A stretch of DNA of 64,000 nucleotides from Quisquiliibacterium transsilvanicum (GTDB lineage: Bacteria > Pseudomonadota > Gammaproteobacteria > Burkholderiales > Burkholderiaceae_E), in assembly GCF_014202215.1 (NCBI RefSeq), contig NZ_JACHGB010000005.1, positions 124,001 to 188,000 on the forward strand, written 5' to 3'. Shown piece after piece: positions 31,727-53,028 of the stretch. The notes under the pieces are model-generated. The model did no database searches. It saw only the letters and a program-made list of their open reading frames with translations, and had not been told where the DNA came from. Each line of letters starts with the position of its first letter. The stretch's first letter is position 1. Made by a program: the position numbers and the translations under genes.

Positions 31727-33910
31727 TCATATCTCCAGCGGATCCACTTCAAGCTGCCAGCGCACCGGGGTGCGGATGGCGTCCAGCTGCGCGAGCCACC
31801 GGTCGAGGAAGGCGTGCAGCGCCGCCCGGGAATCGGCCTCCAGCAGCAGCTGGGCGCGCTCGCTGCCGGCCAGGCGCATCAGCGGCATCGGCACCGGATC
31901 GAACAGCGTTGGGCCCTGCGTCTCGTCGGGCTGGGCCAGCGCCTTCGCCTGCGCCAGGAAGTCCAGCGCCGCGTCCAGCGTGCGCGCCTCGGCCCGCAGC
32001 AGCGCCTGGAACACGAAGGGCGGCAGCCGCGACTCGCGGCGCTCGGCGAGCTGGGCGTCGGCGAAGCCGGCGTAGTCGTGCCGGGCCAGCGCCGCGAACA
32101 GCGGATGACCGGGAAAGCGCGACTGAACGATCACCCGGCTGGCGGCCCCGGAGCGCCCTGCCCTGCCTGCCACCTGCATCAGCACCGCGAACAGCCGCTC
32201 GGGCGCGCGGAAGTCCGACGAATAGAGCCCGCCGTCGGGGTCGATCGCGGCAACCAGCGTGAGCCGGCGGAAGTCGTGCCCCTTGGCGAGCATCTGCGTG
32301 CCGACCAGGATGTCCACGTCGCCGGCATGCGCGGCGTCGATGATGTCCCGGGCCGCGTTGCGGCGCCGGGCGACGTCGCGATCCAGCCGGGCGATGCGCG
32401 CGCCCGGGAACAGCTGCTGGAGGCCCTCCTCGAGCCGCTGGGTGCCGCGGCCCAGCGGGGTGAGGTCGACGTTGCCGCAGTCCGGGCAGGCGCGCGGCAC
32501 CGCCGTTTCCGCGCTGCAGTGATGGCAGACCAGCCGGTAGCGCGACGGGCCCGCCGCAGGCCGCTGGTCCAGGCGGTGCAGCACCCGGTAGGCCGAACAG
32601 TTGTCGCAGCTGCTGAGCCAGCCGCAGGACTCGCAGGTGAGCACCGGGGCGAAGCCGCGCCGGTTGATGAAGACCAGCGACTGCTCGCCGCGGCCGAGCG
32701 CCTCGCCCAGCGCCTCGACCACCTCGGGCGCCAGGCTGTGCTGCAGCTTGCGGCCGCGCGGGTCCACGATGCGCAGCCTGGGCAGCGCGCCGCCGCCGGC
32801 GCGCTCCGGCATCGGCAGCAGCCGGTAGCGCCCCCGGTGCGCCGCCAGCCAGCTCTCCAGCGACGGCGTCGCCGAGCCCAGCACCACCGGAACGCCGCGC
32901 TGCGAGGCCAGCGCCACCGCCAGGTCGCGTGCCGAGTAACGCACGCCCTCCTGCTGGCGGTAGGAGGCGTCATGTTCCTCGTCGACCACGATGCCGGCCA
33001 GCCCCGGCAGCGGGGTGAGCACCGCCAGCCGCGTGCCGACCACCAGCCGCACCCGCCCCTGCGCCACCGCCAGCCACTGCGCCGCCCGGTCGCCGTCGGC
33101 CAGGCCGCTGTGCAGCACTGCCACCGGCTCATTGGCGAAGCGGCGGGCGATCTGGCCGAACAGCTGGGGCGTGAGCGCGATCTCGGGCACCAGCAGCAGC
33201 ACCTGCGCGTCCGCCCGCTGCGCCAGCAGGTGCGCGATCCAGCGCAGGTAGACCTCGGTCTTGCCGCTGCCGGTGACGCCATGCAGCAGATGCACGGCGA
33301 ACCCCGTGCAGGCGGTGAGCGCAGCGAGTGCGGCGCGCTGGGAGCCGGTGAGGGAGAGCACGGCGGGTGCGCCGGTGGCCGGGCTGACGTTCGGGCTGAC
33401 GTTCGGGCTGGCGGCCGTAAGGTCGACCGTGAGGTCGGCCACGGGATCGGCGCCGATGTCCGCCGACGCTTCGGCGATGACGCCGGCCGCGACTTCGCGC
33501 GCGACCGCCGGCGCCCGTGCCCGGGCCCGCGCGAAGACGGAGCCGCGGGCCCGGGCGGCGGGCACGGTGCGCAGCAGCTTCGGGATGGCCGGCAGCAGCA
33601 CCTCGCCGATGCCGCGGTGGTAGTAGCGCGCAGCGAAGGCTGCCAGCGCCAGCCAGTGCTCGTCGGGCGCCGGCGCCTCGTCGAGCAGCGCAATCACCTC
33701 GCGCAGCCGCTCCGGCGGCACCTCCGTGTGGTCGGAAAGCGACACCACCACGCCGATGCGCCGCGCCTTTCCCCAGGGCACCAGCACCCAGGCGCCCGGG
33801 CGCACGCGCTCCGAGAGCGGCTCAGCGAGCGCGTAGTCGAAGCCGCCGCTGCCCGGAACGTCGAGCGCCACGCGGGCGATGCGGACTGGATCCGGCGGCG
33901 TCACCATCAC
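31727..33910 (-). CDS. priA: Primosomal protein N', helicase PriA
   Basis: A 727-residue helicase that restarts stalled replication forks by loading the primosome. It has an N-terminal 3'-end DNA-binding domain (ARVALDVPGSGGFDYALAEPL), Walker A LLHGVTGSGKTEVYL, the DEEHD box (IVVDEEHDASYRQ), zinc-binding cysteines (CESCGWLSSCDNC and CHHC..CPDCG), and helicase motifs QMLAKGHDF and QVAGRAGRSG. Either of two adjacent N-terminal ATGs may be used. Three DnaA-box matches lie upstream in the 322-base gap to hemE. Confidence 0.95.
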   Translation of the reverse strand: MMVTPPDPVRIARVALDVPGSGGFDYALAEPLSERVRPGAWVLVPWGKARRIGVVVSLSDHTEVPPERLREVIALLDEAPAPDEHWLALAAFAARYYHRGIGEVLLPAIPKLLRTVPAARARGSVFARARARAPAVAREVAAGVIAEASADIGADPVADLTVDLTAASPNVSPNVSPATGAPAVLSLTGSQRAALAALTACTGFAVHLLHGVTGSGKTEVYLRWIAHLLAQRADAQVLLLVPEIALTPQLFGQIARRFANEPVAVLHSGLADGDRAAQWLAVAQGRVRLVVGTRLAVLTPLPGLAGIVVDEEHDASYRQQEGVRYSARDLAVALASQRGVPVVLGSATPSLESWLAAHRGRYRLLPMPERAGGGALPRLRIVDPRGRKLQHSLAPEVVEALGEALGRGEQSLVFINRRGFAPVLTCESCGWLSSCDNCSAYRVLHRLDQRPAAGPSRYRLVCHHCSAETAVPRACPDCGNVDLTPLGRGTQRLEEGLQQLFPGARIARLDRDVARRRNAARDIIDAAHAGDVDILVGTQMLAKGHDFRRLTLVAAIDPDGGLYSSDFRAPERLFAVLMQVAGRAGRSGAASRVIVQSRFPGHPLFAALARHDYAGFADAQLAERRESRLPPFVFQALLRAEARTLDAALDFLAQAKALAQPDETQGPTLFDPVPMPLMRLAGSERAQLLLEADSRAALHAFLDRWLAQLDAIRTPVRWQLEVDPLEI

Positions 33911-34232
33911 AATTCACTTTAACTTTGGTAACTAAGCCGTAGTGCCTACGACACTTTTCCGAGGTGTTCACAGAACCTGTGGATAAATCTGTGGCCAACT
34001 CTGTCCGATCGCCCGGAAAACCGCGCCAACTCTCGCGCCGAGGTCGGCTGCCCGGATTTTGCACACAAAAAAACTGTTATGAATCAAGGACTTGCAAAAC
34101 CGCCCGAGACGCAGCTCGGCGCACGCGACTGCTTGACAGACTCGCGACCGTAGTGTGCATAAGTCCTGAGAAAATTGCCCGGAAATGCTGCATTGCACCG
34201 CCCGGCATGCGCCCGCGAGGCGCCGCCGAAGC
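33911..34232. other. AT-richer gap with three DnaA-box matches between hemE and priA
   Basis: This stretch is visibly richer in A and T than its neighbours and has no gene. Matches to the DnaA box TTWTNCACA are TTATCCACA (minus, 33978-33986), TTTTGCACA (plus, 34057-34065) and TTATGCACA (minus, 34154-34162). A degenerate fourth copy, TGTGGCCAA, is at 33990. A small dyad CGTAG-TGC-CTACG lies near 33937-33949. It must also contain the priA promoter. It resembles origin-type DNA, but gene orientation on its right side argues against it being the main origin. Confidence 0.6.
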
Positions 34233-35381
34233 TCAGGCGGATGCGTCGCGCGTGCTCCGGGCACGGATCGCGCGGCTGTGCCGGTGCACTTCCTCGACCA
34301 GCGCCGAAACGCTCTCTGGAGGGGTGAACTGCGAGATGCCGTGGCCGAGGTTGAAGACATGCCCCTCGCCGGCGGCAGGCGCGCCGTAGCTGTCCAGCAC
34401 CTTGCGCGCCTCGGCCTGCACCTGCTCGGGCGAGGCCATCAGCGCCATCGGATCCAGGTTGCCCTGCAATGCACAACGGCCGCCCAGCGCAGCGCGCGCG
34501 CGGGCCAGGTTGACGGTCCAGTCGACGCCCACTGCGTCGCACCCGCTGGCTGCGATCTCGTCGAGCCAGAGCCCGCCGCCCTTGGTGAAGACGATGGAGG
34601 GCACCTTGACCCGGCGCGTGCCGGTGACCCGGCCGTCCGCGTCCGTTTCGGGCTCGTCGCGCTCCGTGCGCAGTTGCGCCAGCACACGGCGGGTGTAGTC
34701 GAGCGAGAACGCCTGGAAGGCGCCGTCGGCAAGCGCGCCGCCCCAGGAGTCGAAGATCATCACCGCCTGCGCGCCCGCCTCGATCTGCGCGTTCAGGTAC
34801 TGGGCGACCGCCTGCGCGTTCACCTCGAGGATGCGGTGCAGCAGGTCCGGCCGCCGGTAGAGCATCGACTTGATCTGCCGGAAGTCACTGCTGCCGCCGC
34901 CCTCGACCATGTAGCAGGCAAGCGTCCAGGGGCTGCCGGAGAAGCCGATCAGCGGGACGCGCCCGCCCAGCGCGCCGCGGATGGTGCGCACCGCGTCCAG
35001 CACGTAGCGCAGCTCGGCTGTGGGATCGGGCACCGCCAGCGCGGCCACTGCCGCTTCGTCGCGCACGGTGCGCTCGAACTTCGGGCCCTCGCCGTCGGCG
35101 AAATACAGGCCCAGCCCCATGGCGTCCGGCACCGTGAGGATGTCCGAGAAGAGGATCGCTGCATCGAGCGGGAAGCGCTCCAGCGGCTGCAGCGTCACTT
35201 CGCAGGCCAGCTCGGGCGTCTTGCACAGCGCCAGGAAGCTGCCGGCGCGCTTGCGCGTGGCGTTGTACTCCGGCAGGTAGCGGCCGGCCTGGCGCATCAG
35301 CCAGACGGGCGTCCATTCGGTGGGTTCGCGCCGGAGCGCGCGCAGGAAAGTGTCGTTGGCCGGTGCGTTCACGGTGCGCAT
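34233..35381 (-). CDS. hemE: Uroporphyrinogen decarboxylase HemE
   Basis: Decarboxylates the four acetate side chains of uroporphyrinogen III to give coproporphyrinogen III in haem synthesis. The 382-residue protein starts [20 protein letters not shown] and contains the diagnostic [19 protein letters not shown], the active-site aspartate in [17 protein letters not shown], and [21 protein letters not shown] slightly expanded acidic loop ([16 protein letters not shown]) is seen near residue 230. Its start overlaps the end of the preceding gene by 13 bases. Confidence 0.96.
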
Positions 35382-36115
35382 TGTACCGGTGCGGCGGGGG
35401 TCTCCAGCAGGCCGGGGATCGCGTCGGCAGGAAACACCGTGACGCCGGGGCGGGCATTGCGCATCGCCGCCGCCGCGCAACGCGCCAGTTTCTCGGAGGT
35501 GATCGCCTCCAGCGTGCGCGGCAGCATCAGCAGCTGCACGCTCAGGTAGACGCTCACGAAGCGCTCCACCAGGCTCGCACCCCGGCGCCCGGAGTTGCGC
35601 ACCGGCCGCAGCACCACCAGGGAGTCCAGCGGCAGGCGGGCCAACTCCAGTTCGACCGAGTCGGCAAGACCGGTGTGGAACTTGCCGATCTGGCGCCAGG
35701 CCGCCATCGGCGCGATCAGCACCAGGCGCCGCGCGCCGCTCTCGACTGCGCGGCGCGCCACGTGGACGCAGTTGAGCTCGTCGACCTGGACGAAGGGCGC
35801 GTCGCGGCCGTAGAACGAGCGGGCCTCGGCGTCGGCCGAGTCGTTGAGGATGAGGAAGGCCGCGTCCAGCGGCGGCAGCGCCTCCATCGAGGCCAGCGTC
35901 AGCCCGCGCATCCCCATCGCCATCGGCGACGCCGCCAGCGCGATCACCGGGCGGCCGCCCACGCCGCCACGGCCCGCCTCGTCGGCGAGCACCCGGTTGA
36001 GCAGGGCCTCGCCGATCCGGCCGATCGCCCCGGCAACCAGCACCCCGGCCTGCGGCCGGACGCTGTCGGTGCGCCCGGACTGCAGGCCTTGGGCAAGTGC
36101 GTGGTTGAGGTTCAC
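35369..36115 (-). CDS. Rossmann-fold NAD(P)-binding protein, oxidoreductase-like
   Basis: A 248-residue protein. The N-terminal part has a dinucleotide-binding turn [18 protein letters not shown] (G-x-x-G-x-x-G), as in SDR and atypical epimerase families. Later segments resemble a nucleoside-sugar epimerase-like fold ([25 protein letters not shown], then [25 protein letters not shown]). A canonical YxxxK catalytic pair is not apparent, so it may bind a cofactor without being a dehydrogenase. The GTG start overlaps the stop of the ThDP enzyme gene (GTGA), and the 3' end overlaps hemE. Confidence 0.7.
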
Positions 36116-50152: not shown

Positions 50153-52074
50153 CAGGCCGCCTGCGCGTCGAGGCGCCGCTTCTTCAGGTAGACGAGCAGC
50201 AGCGAGATGGCCGCCGGCGTGACCCCGGAGATGCGGGATGCCAGGCCCACAGTCTCGGGACGTTGCGCGACCAGCTTCGCCCTGACCTCGTTGGAAAGCC
50301 CCTGCACCCGCGCGTAGTCGAAATCCGCCGGAATCGGCAGGTGCTCGTTGTGCTCCTGCCTCGCTACTTCCGCCCGCTGGCGGGCGATGTAGCCGGCGTA
50401 CTTGCTCTGGATCTCGAGCTGCTCGACGGCCTGCTCGCAGCGCAGCGCATCCAGGCCGAGCTCGTCCGCGCGCTCCGCGATGCCGGGCCCGGCAAGCTCC
50501 ATCAGCGCCGCGTAGCGCACTTCGGGCCGGCGCAGCAGTTCCGCAAGGGTGTGGTCCCGCTCGATGGGCTGGCCGATCAGCTGCACTGCGCGCTCCGGAG
50601 GCAGACTGACTGGATTGACGGAGATGGACGACAATCGCTTCATTTCGGCGTCGATGGCGTCGCGTTTGCGACAGAACACATCCCAGCGGGCATCACTGAC
50701 GCAGCCGAGCTCGCGCCCGATCGCAGTCAGGCGCAGATCGGCATTGTCCTCGCGCAGGCTGAGCCGATATTCGGCGCGACTGGTGAACATCCGATAGGGA
50801 TCGGTCACGCCGCGCGTGATCAGGTCGTCGACCAGAACGCCCAGGTAGGCCTCGTCGCGCCGCGGACACCAGGGCTCCCTGCCCTGCACCTGCAGCGCCG
50901 CGTTGATGCCGGCGAGCAGCCCCTGGGCTGCCGCCTCCTCGTAGCCGGTGGTGCCGTTGATCTGGCCCGCGAAGAACAGCCCGGGGATCTGCTGGGTCTC
51001 GAGCGAGCGACGCAGCGCGCGCGGATCGAAGAAGTCGTACTCGATCGCGTAGCCGGGCCGCAGGATGTGGGCACGCTCCAGGCCGGCGATCGAGTGGACG
51101 AGCTCGAGCTGCACGTCGAAGGGCAGGCTGGTGGAGATGCCGTTCGGATAGAACTCGTGCGTGGCCAGCCCCTCGGGCTCCAGGAAGACCTGGTGGGATT
51201 CCTTGTCCGCGAAGCGATGGATCTTGTCCTCGACCGACGGGCAGTAGCGCGGCCCTACGCCTTCAATGACCCCGGTGTACATCGGGCTGCGATCAAGCCC
51301 GCCGCGGATGATCTCGTGGGTGCGGGTATTGGTGTGCGTGACCCAGCAGGGCAGCTGTCGCGGATGCGCGTCCGGACGCCCCAGGAAGGAGAACACCGGC
51401 ACCGGGTCGAGGTCACCGGGCTGCTCGTCACAGCGGGAGAAATCGATGCTGCGGCCATCGATGCGCGGCGGCGTGCCGGTTTTCAGGCGTCCCTGCGGCA
51501 GCTTCAGCTCGCGCAGCCGCGCCGCCAGCGAGATCGAAGGCGGGTCGCCCGCGCGGCCGGCCGGATGGTTGGCGAGCCCGACGTGCACCAGCCCGTTCAG
51601 GAAAGTGCCGGCGGTGAGGATGACCGTACGACCCCGGAAGCGAAGCCCCAGCTGGGTGACCGCACCGGCGACACGACCGCCCTCCAGAATGAGGTCATCC
51701 ACCGCCTGCTGGAACAGCCACAGGTTGGACTGGTTCTCGATGCGCCGTCGGATGGCGTGCCGATAGAGCATGCGGTCCGCCTGGGCGCGGGTGGCGCGCA
51801 CCGCGGGCCCCTTGCTGGAGTTCAGGATGCGGAACTGAATGCCCGCCTCGTCGGTGGCTTCCGCCATCGCGCCGCCGAGCGCGTCGATCTCCTTGACCAG
51901 GTGTCCCTTGCCGATTCCGCCGATCGACGGATTGCAGGACATCTGACCCAGGGTCTCGATGCTGTGCGTGAGCAGGAGCGTGCGCGCGCCCATCCGCGCC
52001 GCGGCGAGCGCGGCTTCGGTGCCGGCGTGACCGCCGCCAACGACGATGACGTCGAATTCGTCCGGATAGTTCAT
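50152..52074 (-). CDS. mnmG: tRNA uridine-5-carboxymethylaminomethyl modification enzyme MnmG (GidA)
   Basis: The FAD-dependent partner of MnmE that modifies wobble uridines in tRNA. The 640 residues begin [29 protein letters not shown] (Rossmann FAD motif) and contain [33 protein letters not shown] and the catalytic-cysteine region [11 protein letters not shown]. The C-terminal tRNA- and MnmE-binding domain includes [16 protein letters not shown]. Frequently placed close to the origin in bacteria. Confidence 0.97.
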
Positions 52075-52109
52075 GCTGAGGGGGCGAGTACCGCACGGGG
52101 AGATCGCGG

Positions 52110-52115
52110 ATTATA
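52110..52115 (-). promoter_or_regulatory. Possible -10 box for mnmG
   Basis: A perfect TATAAT on the minus strand lies 36 bases before the mnmG start. A clear -35 hexamer is not visible at 16-18 bases. Confidence 0.4.
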
Positions 52116-52246
52116 TAAGCCCCTGCCCGCAGTGGCGCGCCCGGCCCTTCGTCCTTCCGGGTCGGCACGATGGAGGGGGGCGGTTTCGTATCCCGTTGGA
52201 GCGCCGTCGCTCCGGAGCGAGCCATGATTGCTGACGAGCAGAATTG

Positions 52247-52939
52247 ATGGATGTTCCACGTGAAACATCAACCCAGACGATGACCGCACTCTCCGGCCTC
52301 CTGCTCGAACACTACCCCTGCCTTGCCGACATTCCCCAAGCACGACTGGCGGTCGATCTCGCGAGCGCAATCGTCGTGTCGGTGCCAGAGCGCACAACCC
52401 TGTTTCGGGAGACCGAACCCTGCGCAGGCTTCCCTTTCGTCCTCGACGGACAGGTGAAGGTTGCCCGCGCCTCAGCCGACGGCCGCGAGCTGGAGCTCTA
52501 CCGGGTACACCCGGGCGAGATCTGCGTCGTCTCGACCGGCTGCCTGCTGGGAGGCACGCCGATGAGCGCCCACGGGGTGGCGGTGACCGGCACCCGCCTC
52601 GTGATGATCGACCGCACCACCCTGCTCGGCTGGACGGACTTCCCCTCGATGCGGATCTTCCTACTCGGTCTGATGGCCGACCGGATGGCGGAACTGATGG
52701 CTCTCGTCGAGGCGGTTGCATTCCAGCGCCTCGATCAGCGACTTGCCCACGCGCTGCTCGGTCACGGCAAGCTGATCCGCGCGACGCACCAGCAACTTGC
52801 AGACGAGCTCGGCACCGCACGAGAAATGGTCTCGCGACTGCTCAAGCGACTGGAAGACCAGGGCATCCTGCGCCTTGGACGCGAGCAGGTGGAAATTCTG
52901 GACCTGATCCGGCTAAAGTCGCTCGCAAGACAGGACTGA
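52247..52939 (+). CDS. Crp/Fnr-family transcriptional regulator
   Basis: A 230-residue regulator. The N-terminal cyclic-nucleotide-binding-type barrel covers residues about 20-135 (ERTTLFRETEPCAGFPFVLDGQVKVARASADGRELELYRVHPGEICVVS, quoted to locate it). The C-terminal winged helix includes THQQLADELGTAREMVSRLLKRLEDQGILRLG. FNR-type iron-sulfur cysteines are missing, although isolated cysteines are present (ETEPCAGF, GEICVVSTGC), so a redox or sulfur signal is possible. The region of the start codon overlaps a parS site (52252-52267), which encodes the first residues. MTALSG at 52280 is an alternative start. The downstream DUF2892 gene is a probable target. Confidence 0.88.
   Translation: MDVPRETSTQTMTALSGLLLEHYPCLADIPQARLAVDLASAIVVSVPERTTLFRETEPCAGFPFVLDGQVKVARASADGRELELYRVHPGEICVVSTGCLLGGTPMSAHGVAVTGTRLVMIDRTTLLGWTDFPSMRIFLLGLMADRMAELMALVEAVAFQRLDQRLAHALLGHGKLIRATHQQLADELGTAREMVSRLLKRLEDQGILRLGREQVEILDLIRLKSLARQD
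52252..52267. promoter_or_regulatory. parS site 1 (overlaps the Crp/Fnr gene start)
   Basis: TGTTCCACGTGAAACA is an exact match to the bacterial parS consensus TGTTNCACGTGAAACA. It lies within codons 2-7 of the Crp/Fnr-family gene. Confidence 0.95.
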
Positions 52940-53028
52940 CGTTGCGGCCCTGCGCAGCCCACCGGTTGCCTTTGGGCCGCTCCCAGCTTTGTAACCGCAG
53001 TCACAGACCTGACGCCACCTGCAGGGGA

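Follow-up and report, generated by a model that had tools for sequence, protein, structure and literature searches.

A candidate DnaA-reactivating element between hemE and priA in Quisquiliibacterium transsilvanicum and its relatives

What does a cluster of DnaA boxes do in front of the gene for the replication-restart helicase PriA? The question is raised by the hemE-priA gap of Quisquiliibacterium transsilvanicum, which lies in a 64-kb stretch of DNA that was analysed as a whole and is referred to here as the window. An earlier note on this DNA had suggested that the gap may be a DnaA-titrating or DnaA-regulated locus that links initiation to primosome supply, and that it is probably not the main origin of replication. 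We describe below the architecture of the locus, its recurrence in other genomes and its likeness to known DnaA-regulating sequences of E. coli, and weigh what it may do.

DnaA boxes and other motifs of the hemE-priA gap

The gap (33911-34232) is bounded by the hemE stop (34233) and the priA start (33910), and both genes are on the minus strand. Its downstream neighbour priA (31727..33910) matches NCBIfam NF004067 and TIGR00595 over the cut-off; its upstream neighbour hemE (34233..35480), which reads toward it, does the same with NCBIfam TIGR01464. The G+C content of the gap is 55.9%, in comparison with 69.9% for the window. Three matches to the DnaA box consensus TTWTNCACA are found within it: TTATCCACA at 33978-33986 on the minus strand, TTTTGCACA at 34057-34065 on the plus strand and TTATGCACA at 34154-34162 on the minus strand. 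The claim of three boxes within 185 bases in an AT-richer gap before priA is therefore confirmed in both positions and base composition. The three matches span 185 bp and are the only ones in the window; shuffled versions of the window contain 0.24 matches on average, and none of 100 shuffles reaches three. The whole genome (4.26 Mb, 15 contigs) contains 18 matches, 3 of them in the hemE-priA gap, and about 5e-6 such triples would be expected by chance given 18 random sites.

Besides the boxes of the earlier note, two weaker boxes and an IHF consensus site are present in the gap. Read along the minus strand, the order is distal box, about 68 bp, IHF site, about 96 bp, box III, 3 bp, TTATCCACA, 5 bp and an inverted box I, where the numerals follow the equivalent boxes of the E. 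coli DARS sequences and TTATCCACA, a full match to the consensus, is the equivalent of box II. The distal box is TTATGCACA (34154..34162, minus strand), at -176 from box II. The candidate IHF site CAAGTCCTTGATT (34082..34094, minus strand) has 0 mismatches to the consensus YAANNNNTTGATW and lies at -108 from box II. The box III equivalent TTGGCCACA (33990..33998, minus strand) stands 3 bp from box II, and the box I equivalent GTGTTCACA (33964..33972, plus strand) is inverted and stands 5 bp from it on the other side. Boxes III and I are weak in this genome and its family, each having 2 mismatches to TTWTNCACA here. The remaining consensus match, at 34057, falls outside the conserved architecture; we considered it as a part of the element and rejected it, since its position and strand are not kept in relatives.

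Recurrence upstream of priA and elsewhere

PriA was searched in 61 genomes and matched in 59, and 29 loci upstream of priA, that of Q. transsilvanicum included, were chosen by PriA alone. The full arrangement (distal box, IHF site, box III, TTATCCACA, inverted box I) recurs in 27 of the 29 and is absent from the other two (L019 and L028). The distal box lies at -175 to -187 from TTATCCACA with at most 1 mismatch to TTATNCACA in all 27 loci, and an IHF consensus with at most 1 mismatch lies at -108 to -110 in 26 of them. In the core, a same-strand box is found at a gap of 3 in 27 of the 29 loci, and an inverted box at a gap of 5 in 25; as a control of spacing, any other gap from 0 to 15 gives at most 3 loci for the former and at most 5 for the latter. 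The sequence between the motifs is hardly alignable, with a mean column identity of 56%.

A sequence-only profile, R1, was built from 27 priA-upstream loci, and its E-values are to be taken as rough. The window element, itself one of the 27 training sequences, is matched by R1 at 33950..34175 on the minus strand with 140.2 bits (E 5.6e-42, positions 7-232 of the 235 in the model), which defines the whole conserved element. PriA places in 58 genomes were used: G028, which has only a weak PriA match, was dropped. An R1 match is found within 1.5 kb upstream of priA in 45 of these 58 genomes; in G004, PriA starts at base 6 of a contig, so upstream DNA is absent. All 52 R1 matches upstream of priA are oriented as priA reads. 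Conservation of the boxes before priA, which the earlier note had named as a check, is thus strong for the element as a whole, with the exception of the third box.

Some loci carry more than a single copy. Tandem double copies are found upstream of priA at seven loci (L032, L154, L179, L183, L196, L200 and L223), their hosts being G043, Collimonas, Duganella, Rugamonas, Pseudoduganella and one further betaproteobacterium. Beyond the complete priA copy, two genomes have several partial copies of the element's right half, at G025:C1:736143-736829 and G010:C2:589499-589824.

The element also has a second home. Over 319 kb of the Q. transsilvanicum genome, including the oriC and dnaA stretches, R1 has two matches only, the window element and a second element at C2:120638-120837 (61.6 bits) that was not a training sequence, and the same two are the only matches in the whole genome at E up to 1e-5. 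The second element is flanked by a MotA/TolQ/ExbB-family gene and by xseA, and lpxK is close by. The neighbours of 40 of the 60 R1 matches lying elsewhere than upstream of priA were examined: xseA is present at 32 of these 40 loci, mostly with exbB and lpxK. Judged from sequence, the same geometry is kept at xseA-exbB in Q. transsilvanicum and in many of its relatives.

R1 finds matches in 58 of the 61 relatives at E up to 1e-5. At E up to 1e-4 it matches 122 of the 143 genomes sampled within the class and 93 of the 150 sampled within the phylum, the last including families outside the class and some genomes matched by the core part only. Of 29 class loci, all have boxes III and I when 2 mismatches are allowed, 27 have the IHF site at 1 mismatch and 28 have the distal box, although this geometry is not independent of the model because the loci were chosen by R1. 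When these loci are reversed, a scorable box II is found in 13 of the 29, and among these box III, box I and the IHF site are found in none and the distal box in 2. Searches with exact patterns give at least 184 of 399 genomes of the order and at least 151 of 369 of the class, and every control listed, with the pattern read backwards, gives 0; both counts are lower bounds, since strict patterns miss degenerate cores. When named genomes are scanned for the complete arrangement, at least 116 stretches are obtained, and the 80 matches listed include the genera Comamonas, Rhodoferax, Polynucleobacter, Caballeronia, Collimonas, Duganella, Thiobacillus, Methylobacter, Pseudomonas, Stutzerimonas, Hahella and others. 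Pooling the class pattern and the named-genome scan, 110 loci among the matches listed were searched for six neighbouring proteins: 51 have PriA and/or HemE, 1 has XseA and 58 have none of the six. Taken together, the predicted element is usually found before priA, often with a second copy at xseA-exbB, that is, at one or two fixed places in most relatives.

Several minor patterns accompany this distribution. Eight loci (L148, L152, L159, L174, L191, L202, L216 and L219) have a related protein as the upstream neighbour of the element and are a possible third recurrent home; by eye, the neighbour at L219 looks like HemW (radical SAM). In family f240, outside the class, there are up to 9 R1 matches per genome, mostly to the part comprising the IHF site and the core. 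Genome G057 has many pairs of TTATCCACA, face to face about 25 bp apart and scattered over the chromosome (e.g., 799156/799181 and 930710/930736), which look like a repeated element carrying DnaA boxes.

Comparison with DARS1, DARS2 and datA of E. coli

Reactivation of DnaA by DARS has been worked out in E. coli, and DARS have been noted in its relatives near uvrB and mutH. Activity of DARS2 needs its IHF site and Fis sites (FBS2-3). As read from the MG1655 sequence, DARS1 is TAATACACA-3-TTATCCACA-5-inverted TTATCCACT, and DARS2 is TTCTTCACA-3-CTATCCACA-5-inverted TTATTCACC, accompanied on the same strand by an IHF-like TAATGCATTGACT at -99. In DARS1, DARS2 and the window element alike, the three boxes of the core have identical spacing and orientation. 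DARS2 and the window element further share an IHF consensus upstream of the core on the same strand, at an offset of -99 in the former and -108 in the latter. The predicted element thus has three boxes at fixed spacing with box I inverted, as in a DARS, and, by its sequence, an IHF site near the core, as in DARS2. It differs from both in its distal box: DARS1 is without a distal box in register, and DARS2 is without a distal DnaA box of the same direction. It also differs in location, as DARS1 lies between bioD and uvrB and DARS2 upstream of mutH, whereas the window element lies before priA.

Equal spacing of boxes I-III in DARS1 and DARS2, with box I opposite to II and III, is described in PMC5742627, the same text stating that DARS1 works independently of IHF; the head-to-head arrangement of boxes I and II is called essential in a passage of PMC10380432, and parts of PMC4245941 report that the position of IHF matters in DARS2 and that the core is conserved among gamma-proteobacteria related to E. 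coli. Conservation of DARS is put as E. coli-proximal beta- or gamma-proteobacteria in a passage of PMC5742627. DARS-like sequences in other proteobacteria are credited to Fujimitsu et al. 2009, as cited in portions of PMC10380432, PMC5742627 and PMC6090056, and the passage in the last of these places V. cholerae DARS-like sequences at uvrB and mutH.

The distal box finds its counterpart in datA, which lies between glyVXY and queG. datA also has a third essential box, the low-affinity box 7. When box 3 of datA is set on box III, its box 2, IHF site and box 3 fall at -174/-109/-12, in comparison with -176/-108/-12 for the distal box, IHF site and box III here. According to PMC5742627, the essential boxes of datA all point the same way and their distance from the IHF site matters; two same-direction boxes flanking a candidate IHF site at this spacing are likewise present in the window element. 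datA has no DARS core, however: its proximal box is followed at 3 bp by an inverted box, and its R1 match is weaker. Because its core gaps match those of DARS1 and DARS2 and its offsets match those of datA, the window element combines a DARS core with the distal spacing of datA.

R1 was also run over 200 kb of E. coli picked to contain oriC, DARS1, DARS2 and datA, not the whole genome. At E up to 10, it gives five matches in these 200 kb, of which the best two are DARS2 (22.3 bits) and DARS1 (21.0). The others are datA (16.0 and 8.0) and further boxes of the DARS2 region (14.5), and the 16.0-bit match to the datA region lies outside the geometric register. There is no match at E. coli oriC within the 200 kb searched, and none upstream of E. 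coli priA.

Possible functions of the element

Its combination of DnaA boxes, IHF site and AT-richer DNA is origin-like, and the element might be taken for a second or ancestral replication origin. The cumulative GC skew, computed over 279 kb of contig C5, has its minimum near C5:312 kb, whereas the element is at C5:158 kb. At C5:313653-313763, about 155 kb from the element, 4 of the 18 TTWTNCACA matches of the genome lie within 111 bp, flanked by a glyoxalase-family gene and a NUDIX gene; this cluster (L034) is likely oriC. It stands beside neither dnaA nor mnmG, which are 67 kb and about 137 kb away, respectively; dnaA, at C5:246278, has one box upstream. Three relatives likewise have their skew switch at a distance from the priA element: near 1.70 Mb in G040, with the element at 142.8 kb; near 660-680 kb in G025, with the element at 735.5 kb; and at some point within 5.14-5.21 Mb (numbering continued beyond the contig end) in G043, where the element is at 5.0945 Mb and the skew is noisy with a broad minimum. 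R1, moreover, matches neither E. coli oriC nor the oriC and dnaA stretches of Q. transsilvanicum itself. The origin reading is accordingly rejected on the skew of four genomes, a second or ancestral origin being hardly tenable, and the earlier view that this is not the main origin is borne out both by the skew check it had called for and by the four-box cluster.

In our judgement the hemE-priA gap is probably a DnaA-reactivating element of the DARS2 type, with datA-like distal spacing. A device for nucleotide exchange is favoured because the DARS-type core spacing is fixed and an IHF site is present. Following the work on E. coli, ADP-DnaA would bind boxes II and I head to head and would be stabilised on them by box III. 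Bending of the DNA by IHF would bring DnaA on the distal box to the core, ADP would be released, and the freed DnaA would take up ATP again, ready for another round of initiation at oriC, 155 kb off. The copy at xseA-exbB would serve the same DnaA cycle. The genome contains a gene for IHF alpha, over the family cut-off, and a possible gene for Fis, a short HTH_8 frame of 93 aa. The reading of the gap as a DnaA locus, as the earlier note proposed, is upheld.

A datA-type element is a live rival, because the distal box would put further DnaA beyond the IHF bend, as in datA: the IHF loop would bring the DnaA molecules of the distal and the proximal boxes together, stimulating hydrolysis of DnaA-ATP and turning DnaA off after initiation. 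The near agreement in spacing, the direction of the essential datA boxes given in PMC5742627 and the distance of 155 kb from oriC are all consistent with it. The core, however, has the inverted box I of DARS that datA is without, R1 prefers DARS2 and DARS1 over datA, and the element of G040 lies about 1.55 Mb from the skew switch, unlike the ori-proximal datA, and we regard this reading as unlikely. Passive titration, in which the cluster would only buffer free DnaA, was among the suggestions of the earlier note and is conceivable where high-affinity boxes cluster in a genome with only 18 TTWTNCACA sites. Titration requires neither fixed spacing nor an IHF offset, though, while here the core is exact and the IHF offset shifts by a few bp across diverged intergenic DNA; these features point to nucleotide exchange instead and leave mere buffering very unlikely. 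We attach a similarly small likelihood to a DnaA- and IHF-controlled priA promoter that couples primosome supply to initiation. All 52 priA-upstream matches do point as priA, and priA is the commonest neighbour found. Yet the same element occurs at xseA-exbB in 32 of 40 second-site loci and at other genes. In 11 loci, anything between 60 and 148 bp separates box II from the beginning of priA, and no site is found when 33700-34500 is scanned for a sigma-70 consensus, a scan that GC-rich betaproteobacterial promoters may escape. A priA-specific promoter as the main function is disfavoured by the second home and the variable distance. Since the element is also found at xseA-exbB and, in other lineages, at other genes, priA is a frequent neighbour rather than its purpose, and the specific link to primosome supply that had been suggested is left unsupported.

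A wider reading can also be put forward, which we consider rather doubtful as it stands. The element might be the DnaA switch of beta- and gammaproteobacteria in its complete, ancestral form, joining a recharging DARS core and the datA geometry of distal box and IHF loop in one device, with one or two fixed homes, which in betaproteobacteria are priA and xseA. Its direction would depend on whether IHF is bound or on the nucleotide state of DnaA, and datA and DARS2 of E. coli would be its specialised halves.

DARS-like sequences beyond E. coli are already in print. In the open-access literature searched we found no account of the homes at priA and xseA, of the extra distal box or of the genome counts; on this limited basis the two homes and the distal box appear to be new. 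A DARS core, an IHF site and a distal box at predictable addresses in most of the sampled beta- and gammaproteobacterial genomes give a list of sites for deletion and assay. The proposed function would extend the DnaA recharge cycle far past enteric bacteria, and the combined geometry offers a test of whether datA and DARS have a common origin. The element also accounts for the strongly conserved intergenic region before priA.

The earlier note had further stated that atp, par and mnmG, to the right of the gap, all read toward it. This holds for atpD, atpA, atpB, rsmG and mnmG, all of which are on the minus strand; par is unconfirmed, as the stretch at 48425-49342 matches no family at E 1e-30. 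Just right of mnmG, at about 52000-53000 of the window, the GC skew drops abruptly from close to 0 to about -0.09, possibly marking the edge of a rearranged segment.
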